Origin: Siniperca chuatsi
Lineage: Eukaryota; Chordata; Actinopteri; Centrarchiformes; Sinipercidae
DNA: 64,000 nt
Direction: 5' to 3'
Assembly: GCF_020085105.1 (NCBI RefSeq)
Contig: NC_058055.1
Coordinates: 16,501,822 to 16,565,821 of the forward strand
Program-made: the position numbers and the translations under genes
In this document: positions 2,407 through 38,193 of the stretch, one piece after another
Layout of the letters: the number at the start of each line of letters is the position of its first letter
Numbering within the stretch: position 1 is the stretch's first letter
Notes under the pieces: model-generated
What the model saw: only the letters and a program-made list of their open reading frames with translations
The model's database searches: none
What the model was told of the DNA's origin: nothing

Positions 2407-4883
2407 ATATTTAAATTGATTGTTTGGGGGGGGGGGAAACAAGCTGTAAACGCAACACTGACATATCATAACCTTTTAACAGATGCTTATTTACACATCC
2501 AGCAGTTACGGAGCAACTTTAGCATTCGCTTGGAGTCGTGTTTCTGTTTCTGTTTCTGTTTCTGTTTTTGGCCTCCACCAACTCCTGAGAAAAATACCTG
2601 GGCCTTTAGCTGCTAAATGCTCCACTATGTTCACCAGCTAGTTGCTAACTTTGAAACAGCTGCCTGTAAAAACAGTGAAGTTTTGGGCCCAAAAACCAAA
2701 ACGATGAGCTGAAAAGCTCCGTACAGTGATAATTCTCTGCGGGTTTGTCACTTCGAGTGACCCTTTTTACATACAAGCAGTCATGTGATCCATTGTTAAT
2801 GTGAAAATATTGATTATAGCAGCTTTAAAGGCAATTTCAAGGCAAATATGCCACCCTCATTTTAGAAACTATTGCATTGTCTTGTACCGTTGATGGACTG
2901 TTTAATCTCTGGAAACTGAAGTAGCTTTATTTATTTTATTAGTATTTTTATTTCTGTGTCAAAACAAAAAATAATTGCCGCACTGATTTGTTTAAGTGAT
3001 AAGAAAAGAGGAAAATGTGCTAATGTGTTTTTACTGATGTTCAAGGAACTTAATACTATTTGTGAAAACATGTCGTTTTAAATGGCTGCATTGGGATTTC
3101 ATGTCGCCTCTCACAACATCCACAGCACTCAGCTTGGTATTTCCCCGGGAGTTTCCTTCCTATTCCTGTCCCACAGAATCCAGTTCCCCACTGGTTCTTC
3201 AGTACTGTACACACATCACATGCATGTACACACAGAAACAAACACACACTTAATTTATTAAGTTAATACATTTGGCCCCTTTGAAGCACAATCCTTTGTA
3301 AAATATCTCACACTGTAACCTCCCTGATAATTACTAGACTTGGATACTATGTTCTGTCTGCTATTAAACCATACACCCACCAGTGCTAAGAATAGGCTCG
3401 CTCTCCGAGCTCAAACAAGTCTGTCCTGCTTCTGCATTCCCCCACATATCTGAGCTCTTCCAGAAAGAACTACAGGAAGAAAGAGGATAAATCTTACTGC
3501 TGAGTCAGAGAGGACACGTAACATTTGTCCATGCAGGAGTGACAAAGTTCACTGTGAGATGCAGATGTGTGTTTTTTAAAGGCCCTCTTCTTAAAAGAGA
3601 CTTGGCTGTCAGGACACCACAAAAACAGACTGAACATGTTCGTGAAGGCAAAGTGGATCATTTATGGCCAACACAAAGCACACGTAGCATTGACAACTGA
3701 ACTTGTTTAAATTTTCACACAACCTTCAACCCACAATTCACTATTTACTCTACTTGGTCATGTGATTGGTTGCGTTTTTATGTGCTGTGAACCATGCCCC
3801 TGCTCACGTCTTGTCCTGATGAGCTTGCGAGTCACGGACGGTGGGTGGGGGATGATGTGACTTGCACACTTTCTCCATCTGGTGCAGACATCGTTATACA
3901 AACAGATCTTGAGTTGCAGTTAGTGCACTGGCATCTGCTTGCAAGACAACAACAGTTTAACGGCTTTTGCAAACACGTCACATAAGATTTTGTTTTTTGA
4001 GGGGACTTGTACATAAAAGCCCCAGAAATTTCAGTCTAATCATGGTGAATGTTTTACAGAAGCGGGTTTAACCTTACTGACATACCTCCAGGCACTCTAG
4101 ATACGTACAGTTAGTACATACAGTTCTCAGAGAGTAATTAGATCATTTTACATGTTGAAGCAGCTTATTCTTTGAGCTGAATTAGTACCTGGAATTTAAG
4201 TTATATGATAATTTTCACCATAGAAATGTAAACCCTAACCAACCAAACACCAGCTATTTGACTGGTGAGCTCATAACAAAAGATTCACAGTTATGTACAA
4301 GGCAGGCTATGGAAAAAAAAGTAAAGGGCATATGACTGTGATCATGGTGTGTTATTAGAGGCAATGAGCTTCTCATACCAAACACTGTGAGCGATATGAT
4401 GAATTGTCTTTCCTTTAATTTTATTTTATTTGTGTTATACTGATGATCACTGATTCATAATGACTTCCACCTCCACAAACGCCTAAAAAGGACATTGTGG
4501 CTGAATCAGTGGGCAGTGAAGGGTACAGGTTACCAGCTAGCAATGAGCAACATTGGAGAGATTAATATTTCAACAGAAACAGCATCATATCTGTGTGGTG
4601 GGAGGTCACTATAAAGTCTTGTGGGAAGTGCAGAAATCAGACTGGTGGTTTTTATTTTCCAAATCAGATCACAGTCACAGTGAATCTACCTTTACTCATA
4701 TACAGTATTCTGTGAAAAAAATAAATCTATAAAAAGGAAGGCAAAGACATGGGAATGAGACAGCGGATTTTAGTCTTGTGAGGATTTGCTGCGTGTGCTC
4801 ACTGTGTCAGGTGACAGTGAGGAAGCAGCTTCTCAAAGTGCAGCAACCTTAAAGCTGCAGAGTGACAACAGCCCAGGTTCACA

Positions 4884-5045
4884 GGAGAGAGAGAGACAGA
4901 GTGAGAGAGACAGAGAGAGAGAGAGACAGAGTGAGAGAGACAGAGAGAGAGAGACAGAGTGAGAGAGACAGAGAGAGAGAGAGAGGCAGAGTGAGAGAGA
5001 CAGAGAGAGAGAGACAGAGTGAGACAGACAGACAGACAGACCGAC

Positions 5046-5080
<35 letters not shown>

Positions 5081-5255
5081 GAGAGAGACAGAGACAGACA
5101 GAGAGACAGAGAGAGAGAGAGACAGACAGAGAGAGAGAGACAAAGAGACAGAGACAGAGAGAGAGGCGGAGGGAGAGAGACAGAGAGAGAGAGAGACAGA
5201 CAGAGAGAGAGAGACAAAGAGACAGAGACAGAGAGAGAGGCGGAGGGAGAGAGAC

Positions 5256-5290
<35 letters not shown>

Positions 5291-5334
5291 GACAGACAGA
5301 GACAGACAGACAGACAGACAGACAGAGAGAGAGA
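4884..5334. repeat. Compound GA / GACA microsatellite, about 450 bp
   Basis: The stretch is almost entirely mixtures of GAGA and GACA units, with a few GAGGCGGAGG interruptions. A block of about 60 bp, with GACAAAGAGACAGAGACAGA and GAGGCGGAGG, occurs twice in tandem (about 5135-5200 and 5205-5270). Long open frames on both strands (Arg/Glu/Asp-rich on +, Leu/Ser/Cys-rich on -) are low-complexity artefacts. Confidence 0.95.
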
Positions 5335-6029
5335 TGGCAGCACATTTTTTGTAACCCTATAATGTATAATGTGTGTGTGTGTTTTGTTACCTGTGCAAAT
5401 AAAGTAAACTTAGTCAACAACACGGCATTATTATTATTATTATTATAAGATGTAGGTGTCATGCAACTGTTCATTCACGTTGGTCGTGTGCGTGTATTCA
5501 GTCTTTTTTGCTCATTTTTGGCCATTTTTTTTAAAGTGCATTTTTTGTGAACAATTCAACACTCTTTTTAAATTAAGAAAATGGCCCTTACACCAGATTT
5601 ATAATAAAACTTGTTCATATAGGCGGATCAATTATCATATCTATCTTGTTTTTATGTTTGTGATACTGTACTTGTCAAAACCGTATATGGTCATGCTTTG
5701 TGTCTCAAAAACCCATTTTTCAAGATACTTTAAATGAATAATGATGATAAACTTTATTCATATAGCACTTTTCAAAGTTACAAAGTGCTTTTAATGAGGC
5801 AAATATAATCAGACAATTAAAATAATACAAAAATAAGTATTTTGTACTTTAGTAATAAAATAAAAAAAACTGCTAGCATTAACAAAAAGCCTTTTTTATG
5901 ATAAAATGACAGACATGTTGTTGTACTTCCTGAACACCGATGCTGCTGCTAATAAAAGTTTTTGTGTGTGTGTGAATTATTATAAACAGGTCAGCCTGCT
6001 GCCTCGTGGGCTGCATAAAGTAGACCTGC

Positions 6030-15075: not shown

Positions 15076-15809
15076 ACCTCGGCTGATGGGTGTTTATAGC
15101 CAGGTATGTGATAAGCCAAATTAACCAGATGAATTATGGTCATGGGTGGAGGCCATTTTTATACACAGGAAAAGCAACATTTAGAAAGTTTTATGCAGCA
15201 CCTTGTATGGCAGAATATGACTTTACAGGAGGACCCGAGTCTGCAGGGCGTGCTTGTGTAGAAAGGCTCGAGATCACAGTGTCCGCCTTACTCTCTCTCG
15301 CTCTCTCACACACCCTGTGCTGCGCCCTATGTGCTGATCCAGCTGATGCCGCCGCGCGTAAATGGAAAGCTTTTACGCACCGCCCGGGTTCACTCCAAAA
15401 GAGGTTTAATTGTTGTTTTTGCATTGTCACACGCCTCGCCTGGTGCATAAGTAGGCCTCAGATACTGGGGATGTGCTGTGGAGATGTAAGGGATGCGGTA
15501 ATACCTCACTACATAACAGAAGGGGTGGGGGGTAAAAGGCAAGGCGTGCGTCCGGACGCTCACCGCCAACTAAACGCAAGAGCGACTCAGACATCAATAA
15601 CATCTCGCTCATCAATAAGAAATTTTGATGGCGTTAGACTGCTTAATTAAATAGGTTGCCTAAGGTATTAGGCTCTCTGAATTTATAATATCTAATCTAA
15701 TGACCCCCAATGGAGAACATCTGAAGGAAGACTCCCCAGCATCTCCATCCACAGGAAAGCGGCTCGGTCAGACAGAGGATAAGACTTGGAGGTTCCTAAC
15801 CTTACAGTG

Positions 15810-16628
15810 ATGGCTATCAACACTGATGCTGCCTTTGAGAAAAACGCCCTCGGCGAGAGGGAAGTTTCCAATCCCACCGACTTCCATGACACGGAGAAGC
15901 TGCTGAGCACCGCGACCACCGAGCCCACCGGGCAGAGCAACATCAAGCCGTCCGACTCCTTCTCCCTCAACATCAGAGGGAGCGTCCGGTCCCTGGACTC
16001 GGACCAGAACGGACACAGATCACCGCTGAAGTCGGGCTCCATCGGGCAGCTGGCGGCCACACCCAAGTCCTTGTCCCGGCTCAGCCTGGGCCCGCTGCCC
16101 TCCCCGGTGCCGCCCGGCCCGGTACCCCCGAATTACCTCTGGCTCGCCGTGCTGTCCTGTTTCTGCCCCGCCGTGCCGCTCAACATATGTGCCTTGTGGT
16201 ATGCAAATGTGGTGAGTGTTACATTTATTTACAGCTTTAATTTTCTTCAAAACAACACAATGTGGATTACAATTATCTGTCTGTGTTTCGCATGCTTGGG
16301 TATATTCTTGTAAGCTTAGTCCTTTCAAACAGGTGTTTTGCTTCTATGTTGCATTTAAATAACTCATTGTTGATCACATCCTTCCCCTTCCTTTCCCCAT
16401 TAGTCGAAGTCTGTTCTCCATACAGGAGATATTGAAGGAGCGAGGAAGTATGGGCGTCTGTCAATGCTGCTCAGCTGTCTGGCAATGCTGCTGGGTGTGG
16501 CTGTCATCATCTTCATAGTGTTTACAATAGGTATGGAAGAAAGACATAAAAAAAAACCTAACACACAAGGCTCAGTGTAACGCTGCGTATGTTAATTTCT
16601 CTTTTCTCTCTCAGAGGCCCAGCAGTGA
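15810..16628 (+). CDS. trarg1: CD225/dispanin-domain membrane protein, trarg1 (tusc5)-like
   Basis: There are three coding exons, 15810-16211, 16404-16530 and 16615-16628 (stop TGA), joined at GTGAGT/TAG and GTATGG/CAG in phases 0 and 1, giving 180 residues. The ATG has G at -3 and +4, and an in-frame TAA at 15780-15782 excludes an upstream start. Residues 1-108 are a hydrophilic Ser/Pro-rich tail ending in PLPSPVPPGPVPP. Residues 109-178 form the CD225 pair of hydrophobic segments: NYLWLAVLSCFCPAVPLNI, with Cys residues suited to palmitoylation, then the conserved loop GDIEGARKYGRLS and a second membrane helix rich in Leu/Val/Ile. Order and spacing match TRARG1, and the tail shares EKLL-like and SLSRLSL-like blocks with it. 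In mammals that protein governs GLUT4 vesicle recycling in adipocytes. PRRT2 and TMEM233 share the domain and are alternatives. The gene converges on gosr1. Confidence 0.75.
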
Positions 16629-18020: not shown

Positions 18021-21000
18021 TCAGTGGAAAGTGTAGAGCAACAGGAGTATGGTGCAGACGCCAATCACCCCGCCTAGAATTAAAGAGTCCCGCCTCTTGC
18101 GCAAATTGATTTTCTGGATGAGACTGTTGATGGCGGGGAAACGATCTGAGGGGTGGGGAAGTGTGTTCAAGGAAAAATAATTAAGAAGGGGTTTCCTGCC
18201 TTGCAGTGAGAAAGAGACAGAAAGCAGCAGGGAAAATACATCAGCAGGGCTCCTAAGGCAAGCAGGAAAAAGATGCCTAATGGTGTACTGTCTGCCATAC
18301 CCGCCTTCACTGTAATGGAGGTTGTGTTATTCCGGCTCCTACACAGATTCAACCCAGATACATGTGTGCAAATGTACTGCACGTGCAAAACTGGCATTTT
18401 TATTTTAACACAGACAAAGTAAAGAAGGTCAGGAGAAGAGAAAAAGGAGGACTAATGTAAAATGATTAAAATGATAAAAGGATACTGGCCAGAGTTGTGA
18501 CCCTGGTTTGAATGGACTTCAGCATCCCACGCTGAAATGTGATGTTCTCTTTGGTAGCCATGGCGATGCTGGAGGGAGAGAAACCACAAGGGATTAGTGG
18601 CAGGAAAAGATGCCTATAGGCGTCTTCACAGCATCACATTAAGTTGGTTTTAATGTTTCAGCTGAGGAGCCAAAAAGTAGAGAGGTATGATGGTTTGTTT
18701 TCATAGACCTGAATGTGCTGTGTTTGCTTATGGTGTGTGTGTTTGTGTTGAGTGAGTGAGAGTGAATGGAGCAATAAAGCTTACCTTATTGCATTGTCAA
18801 TAAGACTATCTGAGCTGTGAACATGAAACGGAAAAAGGAGAGAGAAAAAGAGAAAAGTCAGATCAAGTCAACTAAAATACCTTCATTTATAAAGTATTAT
18901 ACAAAGATTTAAAGTGCCTAAAATACTTTAAAAAGTACCATCATTTAAGGAATCTTTTGCTGCCCATCATTCACTCTTAACTTTTGATATAATCTCAAAC
19001 ATACTGTATACATTTTCAACGCTACACAGGGAAACCACACAGCTCTTTGCGTCTATTATCATAAAAGGAGCACTTCCTGTGATTCCTGCGAGACGGGAGA
19101 GAAAGTGCTGGTTAATGGAGGATTTTGGGGATCTGATTGGTCAATTCCAACCCCCATCGTAGCAGAAGCCAATTAATCTCTCTCTATATATATAACTGCT
19201 CTGAACACACAGATGCATAAATGTCAGGATGGAATGTCAGGAACTGATCCCGTGTTATTTGTTTTAGGTGCAAAACAGACACATACTGTAGATGGACGAC
19301 ATTGAGCCTAAACACACACAGACGAGGTTTACATCAGCCGCCATTAGCTGCTGAGATAAGTGACGGACATAAAAAAGAAGCGTTCAGTCCAGAGCTGAGC
19401 AGAGCATATAGTGTGCATCCTGGCGGACTCCACTGGAGACCAAAAATCAATACTGCGCTTTATACTCCCTCCATCTATTCGTCCACCTCTCCCAACATCT
19501 ATCTACTGCTGTCTTCTGCTTTTTCTCTCTACTCTTCATTAGCTGGCAGAGTCCACAGGCGAGGCGGCTTCTTGCTTTTGTTTATGTTCTTTCTTTTTTC
19601 TTTCTTTACTTAGTTACTGTCATTCTATGTGAAACTACTTTCCTACATATAAAACTTCACAAAGCAGTCTGATCACCGGTTTGTATGGGCCTGCTTGGCT
19701 TGATGGTGACATTATTGCAACAGTTCAAAGTTCAAAGCTTTAAAAGTCAAAATAAGTTTCATGTGCTACAGATGTCTACCTGTCTGTGGATGACAGTGGT
19801 CTGGATTGAGAGCACACTGGTTGCACACTATTAAGTCTCTTTGTTTGTTTTTTCTTTCACTTACAAATACAGTAAGTGAGGCAGAAACACAATTGGCAGT
19901 TTTCTGTGCAGCTGGCTTTGAAAACAGCATGAGATGTAAGCAGGACCTGCAGTCACATGCATGGTTAAAAGCAGAGCGGTATTGAATGTTTGAAATGTGT
20001 TTGTGTTTGTGTCTAACAACAATTGCATTTGGTGGCGGCACGTTTTAAGAGACACTGTGCCACAGAAGGATCCATTTAAAGGAAACACTTCTGGTTTGTT
20101 GAGGCTGAGAGGCTGAACAACAGTTAGTTACAGTAAGGGTTATTTACAGTTAGTCATAGAGCTAATGGTTCACTGTCTGCCACAACACAAATACCACATA
20201 GCCACACGAATAATTACAAAACTCATAACACTCAAATAATTGTACACACAAATTCCTTCATTTTAAACAGAAATGGTGAGTCTGGCCACCAACAACAGAA
20301 AATACCACTAATAGAAGCTCTTCAGAATATGATAGCAATAAATGGCTATTCCTACCAAACTGCCAGTGACAAAAGTAAGAAAATACAACTTTTTTTGTGT
20401 GGAAACAAATTCATAACATTCAAATCACAGAACTAAATCTCAGCATGTTGCAAACAATCATCAGTTTTCCAAGAAACTGCTAAACTTCTGGCAGAGCTAC
20501 AAAAAGAAGGTTTTAGTATTTCGGTAAATGTGCTGATGTAATTCTGTTAAACAAACACTCCCCCCATTCTCTGGAAATAAGGGGTTCAACAATTCAACAA
20601 TTTCCATCCAGATGAATAAAGTACTATCTTATCTTATCCTTTGTTTCCCAAATCCCAAGATGACTCCTCAAATGTCTTGTTTTGTCCACAACCCAAAGAT
20701 GTTAAATTTACTGTCATATAGGAGTAAAGAAACCTGATAATGTTCACATTTAAGAAACTGGAATCAGCAAATTTAGTCTTTTTTGTCTTCTCAAACAGAT
20801 TAATCGATTATCAAAATAGTTGCCGATTAATTTAACAGTTGACAACTAATTGATTAATCTTGCAGCTCTAGCTGTCTGGCTGTCCGTTCGAGGATGCATT
20901 GGACGAAGGACCAACTACACTGTGACAGGTGGGTTATCTTTCTCATATGGCTGGGAACATAGATTCATTACTTATCAACTGAATCTCTCATGTTTGAGGT

Positions 21001-24000
21001 ATTTCAACAGGACAAATTGCAAACAGTGGCAATGTCAGTAATGCTAGTGCTGATAAGAACAAGCTTTACATTAGCTCAGGTGAGATCGAAGATCACAGAT
21101 TTACTGGTCACATAAATCTTGCCCTCCCATCTTTTGCCACCTGTTTTTCTCTCTTAGGAAAATCACTCAGCTAAAATGATGTCTTATAATAGAAATGTAT
21201 TATGACACAATAGTAATAAATGTTAAATTAATACTTTGAAATCAGCAAAAATCATCGTGATTCATCGTCTTTTGCTGAAACAAAACACCTGTTGACCATA
21301 CTAAAAGTGGGTGGTATATTTTAGATTCATTACTTATTGACTGCTTTGAATCTCTCATGTTCGAGGTATTTCAATTGCAGCCAAGTCCAACATTGGCAAT
21401 GTCAGTAATATTAGTGCTGATAAGAACTCAGGATAAGTTGGTTCAGGGAACAACATTTACATTAGCTCAGGTGAGATGGAAGATTACAGATTTACTGGTC
21501 ACCTAGGACACAGTATTAAACGTGCGTATAACACATTTGTGTGTTAATATTTTCTGTTAATGCATCAGTTGTTTATAATCAGCATTCTCTCACATCTTTG
21601 TGTCTTTTATTCTGTCTTGCCCTCCCGTCTTTTGCCACCTGTTTTTCTCTCTTAGGAAAATCACTCAGCTAAAAATGATGTCTTATAATAGAAATGTCTT
21701 ATGAAACAATAGTAATAAATGTTAAATTAATATTTTGAAATCAGCAAAGATCATCGTGATTCATCGGCTTAAATATTAATCTCACATATCCTGTTTAGAC
21801 TCTGTGGGGGAAAAAACCTGTTGACCATACTAAAAGTGGGTGGTATATTTTAGATTCATTACTTATTGACTGCTTTGAATCTCTCATGTTCGAGGTGTTT
21901 CAACAGGACAAATTGCAGCCAAGTCCAACATTGGCAACAAAACACCTGTTGACCACACTAAAAGGAAGTTCCTCCTCCTAAACCCTCAAAGACATGAACA
22001 CGCATGTGCAGGATACTTATAAAAGCAGTCTTCTCTCCTCAATTCAACACGGTCACCTCATCGCACAGGAAAAACAACTGAAACCAGTGGTAAGATAAAG
22101 ACTCATGTCTGAGTCAACTGCTGTCTTTTAGATACAACAAGTGTACTATCATATTTTTTTATTTTGCATTTTATATTAAGGCTATGACAGACTCTCTTAC
22201 ACTTTGTGCTATACTAAAGTAATCCAAGAGAGAAACAGTGTACAACATTTTGTTTTAACCCATTTTTATGACCATCAGTGTTTTCCATTCCTCTTAGTCA
22301 TTCTCTGCCTGTCTAGATTTCAGCAGGAACAATGTCAGAAATTGGTAACATCAAGGACATTGGCACTTGTGTCAACGCAGGGAATATTGCTTCCAACAAT
22401 TCCTTTGAGGTTAAAGGTAAATCGGAGTGTGACTATTCTTTTCTGTCAGGGTGTCTTGACAGTTTCATTCAATCTCTTTATCTCATGATTACTCTTACAG
22501 AAAGTAGTGGACCCGTTGCTTCTATGGGCAACACCACTAATGTCAAAGTGTCAGCACTCAATACAGGACGGATTGGATCAGGGAACACCTATGAAGGTAA
22601 GTTATTCCTTGTATAATTAGGACGGTATGAACAGTTTATTTCCGATTCATTACTCGTGTTCAGATATCAGCATCTTTATGGTAAACATTTCGGAGTTTCT
22701 GTAGTTGACTTCTTATTCCTTCTCTCATTCGTCATATTTTAGCAGGAAAACTGACAGCTAATGCAAGTGTTGGCAACACAGTCAATGTTTGCGCTGCTAA
22801 TAACCAAGGATCCATTTCTTCAGGGAATCGCCATATCATCGGCTGAGGTAAGAAGTCAGAGATTTAGGGTCCTTTCAAATCTGTAGTTCGGTTCATTTGG
22901 TCGGGTCCAAGGGTAAAAAATTACACATTGTTGCATTTTAGTTCTGGTCAGCTTCATATTCACACTGACTTTTTTTACAAACAAACCAAGAGGAGTATTC
23001 ATGAAATTATACAGACGGTCGGGTAACTCGTTGATTGGACAGTTTTGGCATCATCAGGACCCGCGTGGGGAAATCAAATTCTGGTGACTGACAGCAGTTT
23101 ATGCAGCATTATATGTGATGTGTATATTTATGTTCTTTTTTTGTCACAAAGAGCTCATGATGTAATAATTGATTATAAGCATTATTAGACTGCAAATCGA
23201 CCGCATGTTATGAATAATGACTAACAGGTAGCGACAGGAAGAAAAGGAAGTGTCTTGTACAGTAATGATTCGGGGCTTATTACTGTGGGATCACTGTCAC
23301 ACACTTTTTAATGGACTTCATGAACTGACAAAGTACACGGAGTAGGATACAAGCGCAGCATTTTTAACAGCTTTTGTCCTATTAATCAGGGAAAATAGCC
23401 AAGTTGACGTGCATATGTGTTACCATGGTTACCAAATGATTTGCATAAATATATACATGACTTATACTGATCAATTATGAGATGTCTTTGTATTTTATTC
23501 TTTCTCTCTCTTTTTGTATTTCTCGCTTTTAGGAAATGGCCTTCGAACGGACAACTCCTCTAAACACGATGCACCGTGTCATATAATTCATTCATTAGAT
23601 GAATGTAAAAGACATACAAGTAAAAATAAAGTCCATCTACTATATGATCTCTGTGACTCTCTCTGGTTGTAAATTTACAATTAAAAAAAATAAATTTATG
23701 ACTGACCTGAACTCTGAAGGATATTCAGTGCCTTTAAAATGTTCTTATATTCTTCTTCCAAACATTGTCATGAATTTGTTTTGAATGTTGCTTTGTCTTT
23801 GTCATGTAGTTTTTGTCAGGAAACTGACTGACCAGCAGTTGGGTTACATACATATACATATACATAAGTATAATGTACCTCATAATCCCCCTTCAAGTTA
23901 TTATGCAACTTCTGCAAAAAAGTGGCTGCACCAGATATGATTTAGGTGTGTCATAATAAAGGGGGCAAATACTATGACTGCAGAGGTATGCTGATATGCT

Positions 24001-27000
24001 GATCAATAAACAGCTGAATATGTTTCAATGGTTTGGTATTTACTTTAAGTTTATGTAGAGAATAATAAAATAAAAAACACAAATCATGAATCCATCAAAC
24101 TTCCAAGATTTAATCATTAGGTCATATCACCCTGTAACACCAAACAGCTGACATTACTAAGCCTCCTAACTCTGGAGAACAAGTCACTTTGGGGAACATA
24201 GGCTAATTATGAGTGAAATTAATATGTGACTTAAATTCTGGATCTATGAGGTGCTCTACATTTACAAAGATATAGCACAGACCATACAGGTTCCTTCTTT
24301 GACTTACAGTCTCACTTACAGCAGGAGCAGTCTGTCCTCTACAGGATCGAGTGCATCTCACAAAATCTGCACAAACACAGGGTAATGATGTCTAGCCAGT
24401 TTATTTTTTAGAAAATTGCTCTCCAACGGATCATGAACGCCTCGGCTAAAAATTATGTCTTGTGATGGAAATATCTTACAACACCATAATAACAAATGTT
24501 AAATTCATTCAACCAGCAAAAATCATCAAAATTGATCAGCTTAAATATTAAAGAAATACAAATGAAAAAAAGTCAATATGCCACATGAAACTGTCTTTGC
24601 ATTGTTTCTTTGAATTGTTTTTTGGCATGGGATACTACATCACGGTTTCTCATCCAATAGAATAAGGATGTCATTCTATCCTGTCTGGACTGAAATGTTT
24701 TAAAAACACAGTTGACTTCTAGATTTTTAACTAAGTAGCAACTGATTGTTAACTAGCCATGCTAGCTGCATAGTTCTAGGGATGGCAATGCTGTTGTTAG
24801 TCGGTCTGTCCAACACTTTGGTCCAGACTGAAATATCTCAACACCTAAACACATATAATGGACTGCCATGATATTTTGATCTTTTGTGACTTTTCTTGTA
24901 GCGCCACCAGCAGGTCCACATGTGTGTTTTTTAGTGTAATGTCTCAAAAACTTAAGAACTGCCATGAAATTTGGTGCAGACATTCATGTCCCCCTCAGAT
25001 TGAATGTTAATAACTTTGGTGATCCTCTTGACTTTTCATCTAGCACCACCATCATGTCAAAACTTCAATTTGCCCAATACTTTGTTTTATGACTAAATAC
25101 CTGCAAAACTAATGACATTCTCATCAACCACAGCTGTGGGCGGGATATTGTAAAGAATACAACACACTATGAAGATGGCAGCAAGCAAAGCTAATTGTTC
25201 CAAGAATATGGGGTAATGTATCCACAGTGATTTAACATTGGTTTGGTTTTACAAAGTGCAATGCTGAGCAAATTACTGAGCACAAAGCTGGCAAACTGAG
25301 TGAACAAACAACGTGAATAGTGAATAATGTGTGTGAGTCATGAGTCACTGTAATGACACCTTATTCCTTCAACAGAAAAGATTGGAGGAAATGTAAAATG
25401 TACTTCTTTTGTAATAGCGGATGTTTCTGGAGATGAAGTCTAGCCTGCAGGATGCAGAGGGCTCGTGCTACACAATGACTTTGTAACAAGTACTGTAACA
25501 CAAATCCATGGGCCCCTTCATAGCCACATGTCAACATTTCTGATTTCAAAAAAAGTTCCCTGAAATTGAACCTCAGCTGATGCAGCATTGCATGACAAAA
25601 TCTCACATATCCCCTTTAGACTCCGGGGTTTGCTGAAGAAACAAAACACCTGTTGACTATATTAAAAGGAAGTTTCTCCTCCTAATCCTCCTCATGTCTG
25701 AGTCAACTGCTGTCTTTTAGATACAACAAATCTGACTCTCTTACACTTTGTCCTAAAGTAAAATAATCCAAGAGAGAAACGTATAACATTTTGACTAAAT
25801 CAATTTTTTTTGACAATCACTGTTTTACTTTCCTCTTAGTCATTCTCTGCCTGTCTAGATATCAGCAGGAAAAATGTCACAAGTTGCAAACACAGAGGGC
25901 ATTAACGTTGGCGACAACGAAGGGATGGTTGGTGCTAGGAATACCGTTGACATTAAAGGTAAATCCAAGTGGGACTATACTTGACAGTTTCCTTAAATCT
26001 CTTTCTCACATGACTCTTACAGGAGGTCATGGACACAACTCTTCTCTGGGCAACACCTCTGGCATCGACGTTACAGGAAAGAATACAGAAATGATATGAA
26101 CAAGTATGACATAAAAGGTGAGTTATTGCTAGTATTGCTGGCACGGTATGAACAGTTAATTTCATTACTCAAGTTAAGTTCAGATATCAGCATCTTTACG
26201 GCAAAAATCGTTTCTGTGGTTAACTTTGTATTCCTTCTCTCAATCGTTGTATTTCAACAGGAGGACTGGGAGCAGTGTTAGCAACACTGCTAATGTTAAA
26301 GTTGGTGAGAACTCAGGAGCCATGGTGCAGGGAATATGGTTAACCTCAGCCAAGGTAAGAAGTCAGAGATTTAGTTGCCACTTTGGACACAGTATCAGAT
26401 GTGTACATATGACATGCTTATGTGTTAATTTTTCCTGTGAATCTTTCTCATTGTCTTTCTCCCTTTTAGGGAATTGCCCTTCAACAGATAAAGGACAACT
26501 CTTCTAACTAACTCTTCTGCTTTACTATGTCATATAATTAAAATGTCTTTCAACAAGTATTCACAAATGATGATGATGATTCATGATTTCAAATTGGCAA
26601 AAATTACTCTCATTCATCAGATGAATGTAAAAGAAGTACCATTTATTTTCCAAATAAGTATTTCAGTAGTTAACATAAACTTACTTGCAATAATTTGACA
26701 ACACACTGATAATCTTCCTTCAACTTATTATGCAACTTCTGCAAAAAAAGTGGCTGCACCTGGTATGATTTAGGTGTGTCATAATAAAGGCGGCAAATAC
26801 TATGACTGTGTTAGTGAGTTGAGTTTTTGAACAGATAAACACCAACATGTGTTTTAATGGTTTATGCAACTCAACTGGCAACAGTTGGGTCAAAGATTCA
26901 GGTGTGTTATGCTAGTAGTGGCCAATGTAGCCTCGAGCCGCTAGCCTCAAGCAGAGATGAGGATTTATTATTTCATGATTTCTCAATTTTGGTAATTCTC

Positions 27001-30000
27001 TGTATTTTAAAAGGAGGAACAGGAGCTCAGTCAAATACTGGAAACTCATTTAACACACCAGGTGGAACCAGAAGCAACTCTGGATCTCATCAACTCATAT
27101 TGCTGAGGAAGTTAGTAGGAGTGGACAGTTGATTTCTGACTCATGACTCAGAGATTAGAATATGTGCGGTAAGATTAACAGTTTATGTGATTGTATCTAT
27201 TTATTATTGTTGTGTTTAACAGGAGGAAAAGCAGTCAATATAGGCAACATAACTAACATGACAGTTGGAGACAATGTAGGAGACATTGGTGTAAAGAACA
27301 CCTGCAATGTGAGTAGTGAGTACTGTGTGTCATATTGTTTGGAAGTTAATACACTTATTTAAATTTGGCATCTTTGGCATTTCTGTACTGCAATTTCTTG
27401 TTACTTTTTTGTCTGACATACACACAGATACGAATATTTCTGCAGTAAGTTAATAGTGACCTGGCCAATATAACAGCTCTGGAAAGTTATCACAGCAGCA
27501 ATCATTTTATCCTGTGTCTTGATGAGCGCCAGGTAAACTGCAGTGCTAATGCCAGTATGAACACGGTCTTACTGTGTATTTCAACAGGAGGAGACAGAGT
27601 CAAAATAGGTATTGCCAACATAGGTAACATGACAGTTGGAGACAATGCATTGGTGTAGGGAACAACTGCAATGTGAGCGGTGAGGCCTGTGACTTATATG
27701 GCTGGGAAGGTGCTTTAGCAGATACTTTTCATGATTTATGACTGATGTACGAGACTAGAATCTGTACACAACAGATCTAAGATTAACAGTTTATGTGATT
27801 TATATTTTTCTTTGTAAATCAACAGGAGGAAAAGGAGTTGATATAAATATTGGCTATGCAACAAACGCAGGGATTGGGTTCAACATGGGAGGCTTTGGTG
27901 CAGAGAACAATGTTAACATTAACTAATGTAAGGATGAGTTTAAGTTGTCACAAGGACACAGTTTGGATGTGTTAAATTACATGTTTTGTGTTTGTTCATA
28001 ATTTTTTAACTGTGTTTCTTCATCTCTTTCTCAAAGGAAATCCCTGTCCAAAAGATCATGGACCACAGTGCTATATGACATCCTATTATGGAAAAATACT
28101 GAAACAACAGAGTAGCAAATGCTAATTTATGACATAAAATCAGTGGACATGTCTACTATTGATCAGAATAATGTAACAAAAAACAACAACAAAAAAACAA
28201 AACCATAAACAAAAAGAAAAGAAAAATACTTGTTTTTGCAGCATTCTTTCCAAATGAAAAATTACAAAGTTTTAGACTCTTTTTAGGGGTGCTCAAGCAC
28301 ATCTAAATTTCATCTCAGCAGCCCTAAAACCTTAGGGACCTCCTGATTTACAAATTAAGCACTGTTAGATTTTGCAAACTTGTCTGAGGGCTTAAATGCT
28401 TATAAATTGAAAATCAGCACTGTTCTACACCTCCTGCACTTCCTTGTGTGGGTACTGTTAAAGTGTACTGTTAGTTAACGTTGTTTGTGTGGGTCATAGC
28501 AAAGTCAATTTAAGACTTTGAAAGTATCTGGTGATAGTTCCATGGTGTGAATAGTTGCTAGCTAGCTCAGAGATTATCAGCTAATGTTAGCTCTCTGAGC
28601 TAGTCTGCTTGCACTGCACACTTGCCAGCTAACGAGTCACAATGTTCCTAGCTGCCTCAGCTAAAACGTGACCTGACTTTGGTGAGAAAGATTGTGAGAC
28701 CAAGTCTTGGGTAGTGCAACTGTGATTCTATACAGAGAACAAATGACAAATTAAAGAAAAAAATATAATAAATGAGTGGGGAAAACAACAAATGCAGATG
28801 CTTCCATACAGGGCAGGACAAGTCACTGAATGGTTTGATGAATATAAAAATTATGTGAATCATATGTTGTGACCTACAGTCGCTGGATCTCAACCTAACT
28901 GAACACCCATGGGAGTGCTGGACAGAGGAAGAATGGTGTCCATCCCTTCAGTAGAGTTTAGAGACTTGAAGAATGTACAACAAGTTGTTCTGGAGGCTTG
29001 TGGTGACCCAATTCCTTACTAAGACACCTAAAGACTAGAGATGTCCCGAGCCGATCCTCTTTTCATTCTGATGACCAAATTGTTAAGCTGTTCCACAACT
29101 CATTGGGAACATGTTGCTGCGAGCAGTTGTAATTCACTTGATGTCTTCTGCTTTGAAACCTTTTTGTCCCCACATCCCGTTTTACTTGTGCTCTTTTATT
29201 TTCTTTGTTTGTTAATCTTCCTCTGAGTGCAGTCATGAGAAAATGCTTGAGAAACCACTGACATGCATATGTGCATGTACACATAACCACACACAAATAC
29301 TAGCACATATAGTCATGTTTCACACCACACTAAATACAACCAAATAATGCAACATCTTTCTCAACAACTTTCATATGCTAGTTTTGGAATAAAATCTGTA
29401 TTGTTTAGGATTACAGCCTTTCCTAGTAAGACCTAGTAAGTACACACTCAAACAGTCAAATAAAATGGTGTACAGTGAAGAATATAGTAAATAGGAAGGG
29501 ATATTGGATGTAGGCCTTGGCCATCTTGAAAACCCAAATATTAATTGTGTTTCTAAGTGATAAGTTGTTTATTAAGAAATCTCTTACTTTCTGAGATGTT
29601 CATGTTCCTTCAGAAAGAGCTCAGTCCTTCTGTTATTCACTCCTGAGCTGCTTTTGTAGGACCTGAGTAAGAAAACAGAAGAGAGAGAAACATTTAATGA
29701 TGGGGAATCGGACTGACAAATATTAATAGGATAATAGGATAAGGCAACTTGGTCATTTTCTGCCATTATATGATAGAGACAGTAGAGATCCAGACAGGAA
29801 ATGTGGGGTGAGAGAGAGGGGTATGACATGCAACAAAGATCCCTGGTTAGAATCGAAACAGGGACACATCATTACCACTAGGCCACCAGGCACTGCCACC
29901 AGTCTACAGCCATGCTAGCAGGTCTGTGAGGCTGTATTAAGGCATAGGCTCGCAATGACAATGCTAACATGCAGATGTTAAGTGCGAATTAGCACTGAAC

Positions 30001-37004: not shown

Positions 37005-38193
37005 TTAGTGCTGGATCCTCCTGATTGACTGAATCTGGGGAGTCTGGGCGTGGGAGCCAAACTCACGATAACACTTGTACTCTCCTCCGCGACAGTCACA
37101 CTCCATGATGTACTGGTAGCCACGGTAGCCAGGGTACTGGTAGCACACAAAGCTGCAGGAATAGACAAGAACATGCTAATTAATTAAATGCACAGACTTA
37201 AATAATCAAGTTTACATAGTTTAAAATAGTGATGTATGTAGCTGAAGGTGCACAAAGCAGATTCTTGTACAATATTTCCAGCCAGTGTATGTTTGTAGCT
37301 GTTGCTCAGGACTAGCTGAAGGTGTGTAAAGCTTCGGTGTACATCAAACATCATGACGATGGACTTACGCTCCACTCTGAATGTGCATGGATCCAACCTC
37401 GTTGTTCATCCAGCCCATGGCCTGCAGAGAGGGGTAGTCATCACACAGCTCGAACTGACGACCCGTCATGTTCTCCATCTCGAAGATGGTCATGCGGGAC
37501 TCCTTGTGGTTCTGTACAAAGGAGGACAAAGGAGGTTTAGCACAACTTGAGATGAAGCTCAGCCTAAAGTGAACTAAGGGCTGTTACTGTGTTGTATATT
37601 AAACCTACAGCACAGCAGATGGGCCTGAAGGAGATCATCCTCTCGATGCGGTAGGAGTTGCTGCCACTGTAGGCCTCAAAGCGAGGGTAGTCTCCCTTCT
37701 CCAGAACAAACTGCTGGCCGCAGAAGCTGGAGTGCTCATAGCCCACCCAGCTGCAAGCAGAAAGTGAAAATATTAAAGTCAGAAACCAAGGACATAGAAA
37801 ATCAACACACTCTTTAAGCCTCTCAGAATCTAAAGAAGAAGTTGCTCCATTTTAGTTGCTCTAGCGTTTCCAAAAGTGAGGAAAAGCTCTGCGGATACAT
37901 ACGCGCCACACTCGACCTTCAGGGAGCGGATGTTCTCCATCCCACACTCCATGATGTTCTGGCAGCTGGCGGTGAACTCCATACGCCTGCCCTGGAAGTA
38001 CTCCTGATCGTACACAGTGATCTGTAAAACACAAAATAAATCATGAATGAAGGTGAGTCTAATACAGCTTTCAGAGTTTTTAAGTTGGACCAAAAAGATA
38101 ACAATTGAAACACTACTGGTAATATGGTCTTAAGCATGTCCGCCATATGCTTACCTTCCATGGTCCCATGGGCATAGGGTTTGTCTGAGCCAT
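37005..38193 (-). CDS. cryba1: Beta-crystallin A1 (cryba1), complete
   Basis: Five coding exons in transcription order: 38193-38155, 38021-37903, 37750-37609, 37511-37369, 37152-37005 (stop TAA). All phases match, and the product is 196 residues (mammalian beta-A1 about 198). It is a structural lens protein of four Greek-key motifs, one per exon after the first: [50 protein letters not shown] and [20 protein letters not shown]. The N-terminus [13 protein letters not shown] is the beta-A1 start. An in-frame TGA lies just upstream within the same exon, so the longer beta-A3 form cannot start there. Many Trp positions of the mammalian protein are Phe or Tyr here. The exon upstream of 38215 is untranslated. 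Which teleost paralogue (a or b) this is cannot be decided from the window. Confidence 0.95.

Follow-up and report, generated by a model that had tools for sequence, protein, structure and literature searches.

The intron of gosr1 that carries a series of short exon-like blocks on the opposite strand raises the question of whether these blocks are the remains of a protein-coding gene family and, if so, what has shaped it. The locus was analysed in a window, the whole 64,000-nucleotide stretch of Siniperca chuatsi DNA under study, which lies on contig C14 of the 719-Mb genome searched. Exons of gosr1 were recognised in the window near 32.6-33.8, 29.6, 18.5 and 18.1 kb, all on the minus strand, and the intron of about 11 kb between 18.5 and 29.6 kb holds the blocks on the plus strand; the cluster is therefore both intronic and antisense, as a sequence-only reading of this DNA had proposed. 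That reading had also described at least ten exon-like blocks with a common core in 20990..28126, flanked by AG and GT in matching phase and making up one intact gene, one broken gene, a partial array and several relics. When the region was re-read, 11 recognisable blocks were counted (three each in gene A, gene B and array C, and two in relic group D), besides one weak block (C1) and one truncated fragment (at 21907), with gene A intact and B, C and D decayed copies. Window comparison revealed DNA repeat families that connect the blocks, and the predicted splice sites of gene A bore out the remaining claim, with GT/AG borders at every one and all coding exon borders in phase 1. Positions are collected in Table 1.

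Table 1. Features of the gosr1 intron cluster, numbered from the first nucleotide of the window.
Feature	Position	Strand	Remarks
Host gene gosr1	18021..29700	-	Exons near 29.6, 18.5 and 18.1 kb bracket the cluster-bearing intron
Relic unit D1	21011..21079	+	
Relic unit D2	21381..21470	+	In-frame stop
Truncated fragment D3	21907..21935	+	Directly upstream of gene A
Gene A, whole span	22018..about 23645	+	
Gene A TATA box (TATAAAA)	22018..22024	+	Sole plus-strand match in 20900-28200
Gene A exon 1, non-coding	22048..22089	+	Donor G|GTAAGA; start predicted from the TATA box
Gene A exon 2, repeat unit 1 (MSEIGN...FEVK)	22324..22416	+	ATG at 22332; acceptor at 22327 also possible (NAGNAG)
Gene A exon 3, repeat unit 2	22501..22596	+	
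Gene A exon 4, repeat unit 3	22746..22847	+	Stop codon 22844-22846
Gene A 3' exon	23533..23645	+	AATAAA poly(A) signal at 23625; end predicted
Gene B, decayed paralogue of A	25640..26808	+	Similarity to A runs from before the promoter to past the 3' exon
Gene B exon 2	to 25958	+	ATG at 25874
Gene B exon 3	26023..26117	+	Stop TGA at 26097
Gene B exon 4	26261..26354	+	Frameshifted
Gene B 3' exon	from 26470	+	
Array C weak block C1	27014..27075	+	DNA about 61% identical to that of the array C units; end approximate
Array C unit C2	27223..27315	+	Open; phase-1 donor
Array C unit C3	27588..27679	+	Frameshift and stop
Array C unit C4	27826..27927	+	Open up to TAA 27924-27926
Possible 3' exon after C4	from 28037	+	

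The unit in each coding exon follows the frame GN..N[VI].....N.G.I...N, in which Gly, Asn and aliphatic residues are fixed and the positions between them are free. Relatedness of the units was supported by pairwise shuffles for most pairs within A2, A3, A4, B2, B4 and C2, including A3-A4 (0 of 2000 shuffles), A2-A3 (p=0.0005) and A2-A4 (p=0.01); unit C4 had such support against C2 and B2 and none against A2, A3, A4 or B4. When the 64-kb window was scanned with a profile built from the three exons of gene A, 5 of the 12 best non-training matches fell within the 7.1 kb of 20990-28126, all on the plus strand, each of them weak individually (E 0.14-8.8; the best of five Markov controls reached 0.094 and the reversed window 4.3 at best). 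Leave-one-out profiles of seven units, scanned on the plus strand only, recovered five of the seven at E<0.02; A exon 2 came up at E=1.5 and C4 was missed. The three top non-member matches of each run (21 rows) all lay within 20990-28126, and one of them, at 24222 (E=2.5), is outside every block.

Gene A is made up of three coding exons of about 31 residues each, one repeat unit per exon, which join into a single open product of 93 residues containing 15 Asn and 13 Gly (16 and 14%, respectively). Its maximum hydropathy over 19 residues is 0.27, with no hydrophobic segment and therefore no obvious signal peptide. Intron 2, at 84 nt, is itself open in frame (window frame 22317-22616), so that its retention would link exons 2 and 3 in one longer, uninterrupted frame. 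Neither ISRE (interferon-type) nor NF-kB consensus sites were found in 20900-28200, promoter region included, a result that weighs against the explanation preferred below. Our best guess is that gene A genuinely codes for a small protein and is the sole intact survivor of the cluster, with its translation predicted from the DNA. Gene B lacks the stretch with the TATA box and exon 1, such that the segments 21936-21984 and 22102-22140 of A correspond to 25640-25688 and 25691-25729 in B, and array C has three clear units, two of which (C2 and C4) are open. The earlier description of the family as expanding was not borne out in that wording: among the gene copies A alone is intact, and birth-and-death with net decay therefore fits better than expansion.

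The sequence-only reading had recognised no named family in these units and had put forward a match to a transposon-encoded protein as grounds for abandoning its proposal; neither a named family nor such a match emerged from the searches made here. The spliced 93-residue product of gene A matched 0 families in Pfam, NCBIfam and PHROGs at E<=10, only chance-level matches were returned from the PDB (E 0.61, 0.99 and 0.92), and none of the titles listed in searches of open-licence PMC papers names this protein family. Birth-and-death clusters of fast-changing small genes are known in general; this protein family matched nothing in the libraries searched. Within the genome, the protein query found its own three exons only and missed even gene B, and a made-up consensus query found four units, at the cluster locus. 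One further protein match, on contig C10 (E=7.8), was taken as chance, with no unit seen by eye in the one frame read.

Derivation of the repeat protein from a transposon, to which the multiple copies with repeated flanks might point, appears highly improbable. Whole-genome DNA searches covered 20980-22110, 22300-22700 and 26960-28120 of the cluster, and the first two queries matched the cluster locus only. The third matched an unrelated interspersed element of about 85 nt (window 27373-27455) in the intron between C2 and C3, a feature that might also be read in favour of a transposon; this element touches no exon, and all 39 other scored matches of the query, with 40 of 456 candidates scored, overlap it. 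The exon family was found nowhere else in the genome by these queries, which are parts of the cluster and would let diverged copies escape, and a transposon-encoded protein was rejected on the absence of dispersed exon copies within the limited sensitivity of these searches.

The main result on the nature of the exons came from comparison of genes A and B, aligned over gene A 22101-22880 with all non-exon positions pooled as intron/5'UTR. Differences occupied 94 of 274 positions in the coding exons versus 53 of 413 in intron/5'UTR (Fisher P=3e-11), a contrast that was unchanged under three alignment settings. Identity was 156/174, 56/64 and 116/138 in the introns (84-90%) and 57/85, 60/95 and 63/94 in the coding exons (63-67%). 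When the exon labels were shifted circularly along the alignment, only 4 of 686 shifts matched or beat the observed value, the best being a shift of one base, so that the excess of divergence sits on the predicted exon borders. Differences at codon positions 1, 2 and 3 numbered 41, 32 and 21 (chi-square P=0.04). Over 69 codons dN was 0.50 and dS 0.27; the excess of dN over dS taken alone was not significant (P=0.08), dS was somewhat above intron divergence (P=0.07), and the strong contrast was that between non-synonymous and non-exon change (P=1e-9). Frame positions, in columns chosen by eye, were kept better between A and B than the others (13/22 versus 12/49, P=0.007). On the other side, the 3' flank was uneven, with 63/81 positions identical in the 3' exon, 95/107 in the distal part and 97/141, with 94 gap columns, in a middle stretch whose divergence is on a par with that of the exons, and gene A has a far longer intron 4 than gene B, most of which cannot be aligned. 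The opposite pattern was seen between C2 and C3, in which 78/90 exon and 45/68 flank positions are identical (P=0.003; short, with an uncertain flank alignment); therefore, a raised mutation rate is not a general property of the family's exons. Relics D1 and D2 lean the same way as A and B (8/69 exon versus 12/231 other differences), although not significantly (P=0.09).

Relaxed constraint or neutral decay cannot push exon divergence above intron divergence. The broken state of B, C and D would be in keeping with a set of non-functional, decaying duplicates in which the open frame of gene A survived by chance, but this is an unlikely account: it leaves the exon excess, its position on the predicted borders and the codon-position bias unexplained, and gene A keeps an open frame of 93 codons and a full set of gene signals. 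Coding divergence in excess of non-coding divergence, the mark of a diversifying small-gene cluster, was found in this one gene pair, of which B is a pseudogene, in a comparison made with no outgroup. The pattern supports the view that the predicted exons would be real coding exons under diversifying selection, and the faster change in predicted coding parts than in the intervening DNA is, by analogy, as seen in arms-race genes.

A similar contrast could also be produced by segment switching, in which exon pieces are exchanged between array members while the introns stay similar. There is a precedent in viperid three-finger toxin genes, described as having introns more than 85% identical and switched exon segments (PMC2474615), and exon 2 of gene B aligns with a better score to C2 (56) than to exon 2 of gene A (46). 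We nevertheless consider this origin improbable, since a sliding table placed the A/B differences throughout all three exons and no donor segment was identified. The viperid genes resemble the cluster in mode of evolution only, as duplicated small genes whose introns are more alike than their exons; unlike them, gene A has neither a cysteine framework nor a signal peptide, and no homology is implied.

Diversifying selection on real coding exons remains the preferred reading of the A/B contrast. Given the gene anatomy, the repeats and the exon-confined excess of divergence, we put at about an even chance the explanation that gene A is an orphan gene under diversifying selection, encoding a scaffold of beta repeats whose surface varies and probably engaged in host-pathogen or similar conflict. 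The cluster would have arisen by tandem duplication within the gosr1 intron, followed by local birth-and-death that left A as the intact survivor, and units may have been gained or lost without breaking the frame, since matching phase-1 exon borders leave it intact when a unit is duplicated or lost. The conserved frame with variable positions between is suggestive of a rigid scaffold of beta repeats that presents a variable face. The product, having no hydrophobic segment, would most likely stay in the cell and may fold as short beta strands with Gly-Asn turns, in a beta-arch or beta-solenoid that could self-assemble. Diversification points to a moving partner, which the displayed variable residues would bind and which would most likely be a pathogen or some other antagonist.

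As to the type of conflict, a pathogen is our first guess, with reproduction or environment next. That the gene is real and selection came from gamete or egg-coat conflict, or from ice or mineral binding, seems rather unlikely. The A/B divergence data can be read for such sources too, and other organisms have ice-binding proteins with beta-type repeats rich in Asn, Gly, Thr and Ser; egg-coat proteins and most ice-binding proteins would need a signal peptide, however, and none is obvious in a product whose hydropathy peaks at 0.27.

Known repeat systems were compared with the cluster. RHIM proteins and the fungal and bacterial amyloid signalling motifs resemble its units in being short, beta-prone and Gly/Asn-containing and, by eye, in having a hydrophobic residue preceding G with Asn close by. 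The RHIM core tetrad is V/I-Q-V/I-G (PMC12119088). RHIM membership was rejected, as the tetrad occurs in no unit (ASMG, ASVG, SEIG and VNIG stand instead) and Pfam gave no match at E<=10. The N-terminal repeats of fish FISNA-NACHT (NLR-B30.2) genes are described as fast-evolving units of about 30 residues, one per exon (PMC4852459). The cluster shares with them the fish host, unit length, one unit per exon and fast evolution; unlike these genes, it has no NACHT and no FISNA. FISNA was found at 128 places in the genome, many of them clustered on contigs C24 and C19 and others on C3, C18, C11 and further contigs, with 0 of 128 inside the window coordinates. Thirty-four of these loci were scanned, 30 of which extend only about 1.5 kb to either side of the FISNA match. 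Repeats beside the NLRs of this genome read CVSMKSD (in 3 of the 30 loci and 1 of the 4 larger ones), and the GN profile reached at best E=3.8 in the 30 shorter loci (3.2 kb each) and E=4.0 in the 4 longer ones (7.7 kb each). Placing the units among the fish NLR N-terminal repeats thus found no support, the motif being different where repeats were seen and the GN profile without a match in the 34 loci scanned. Curlin (CsgA), a secreted bacterial protein, has repeated beta units with Gly/Asn turns; gene A is like it in its repeated units with Gly/Asn, but Pfam returned no family for it at E<=10.

Should gene A be expressed, it would represent a family of orphan proteins that lacks any profile relative in the searched libraries and shows strong signs of adaptive change, and a testable candidate for a part in fish innate immunity or another conflict. 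Its short exons lie in an intron, a place where annotation may miss them, and the exon-versus-intron comparison illustrates that a single genome can yield evidence of coding and selection without RNA. Quite doubtful, and offered as speculation, is the broader idea that the cluster represents an undescribed fish family of small, exon-modular, self-assembling beta-repeat proteins that would serve inside the cell as scaffolds for defence and evolve fast. They would be the animal equivalent of amyloid-signalling repeats, with the gosr1 intron as the place where the family is kept and recombined.

Elsewhere in the window, a long low-complexity stretch composed of simple repeats, with open frames on both strands, was noted at 4799-5474. 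By eye, a plus-strand frame at 15783-16313 resembles a proline-rich two-segment membrane protein of the TRARG1/TUSC5 type, and a minus-strand frame at 37830-38129 resembles a beta-crystallin exon.
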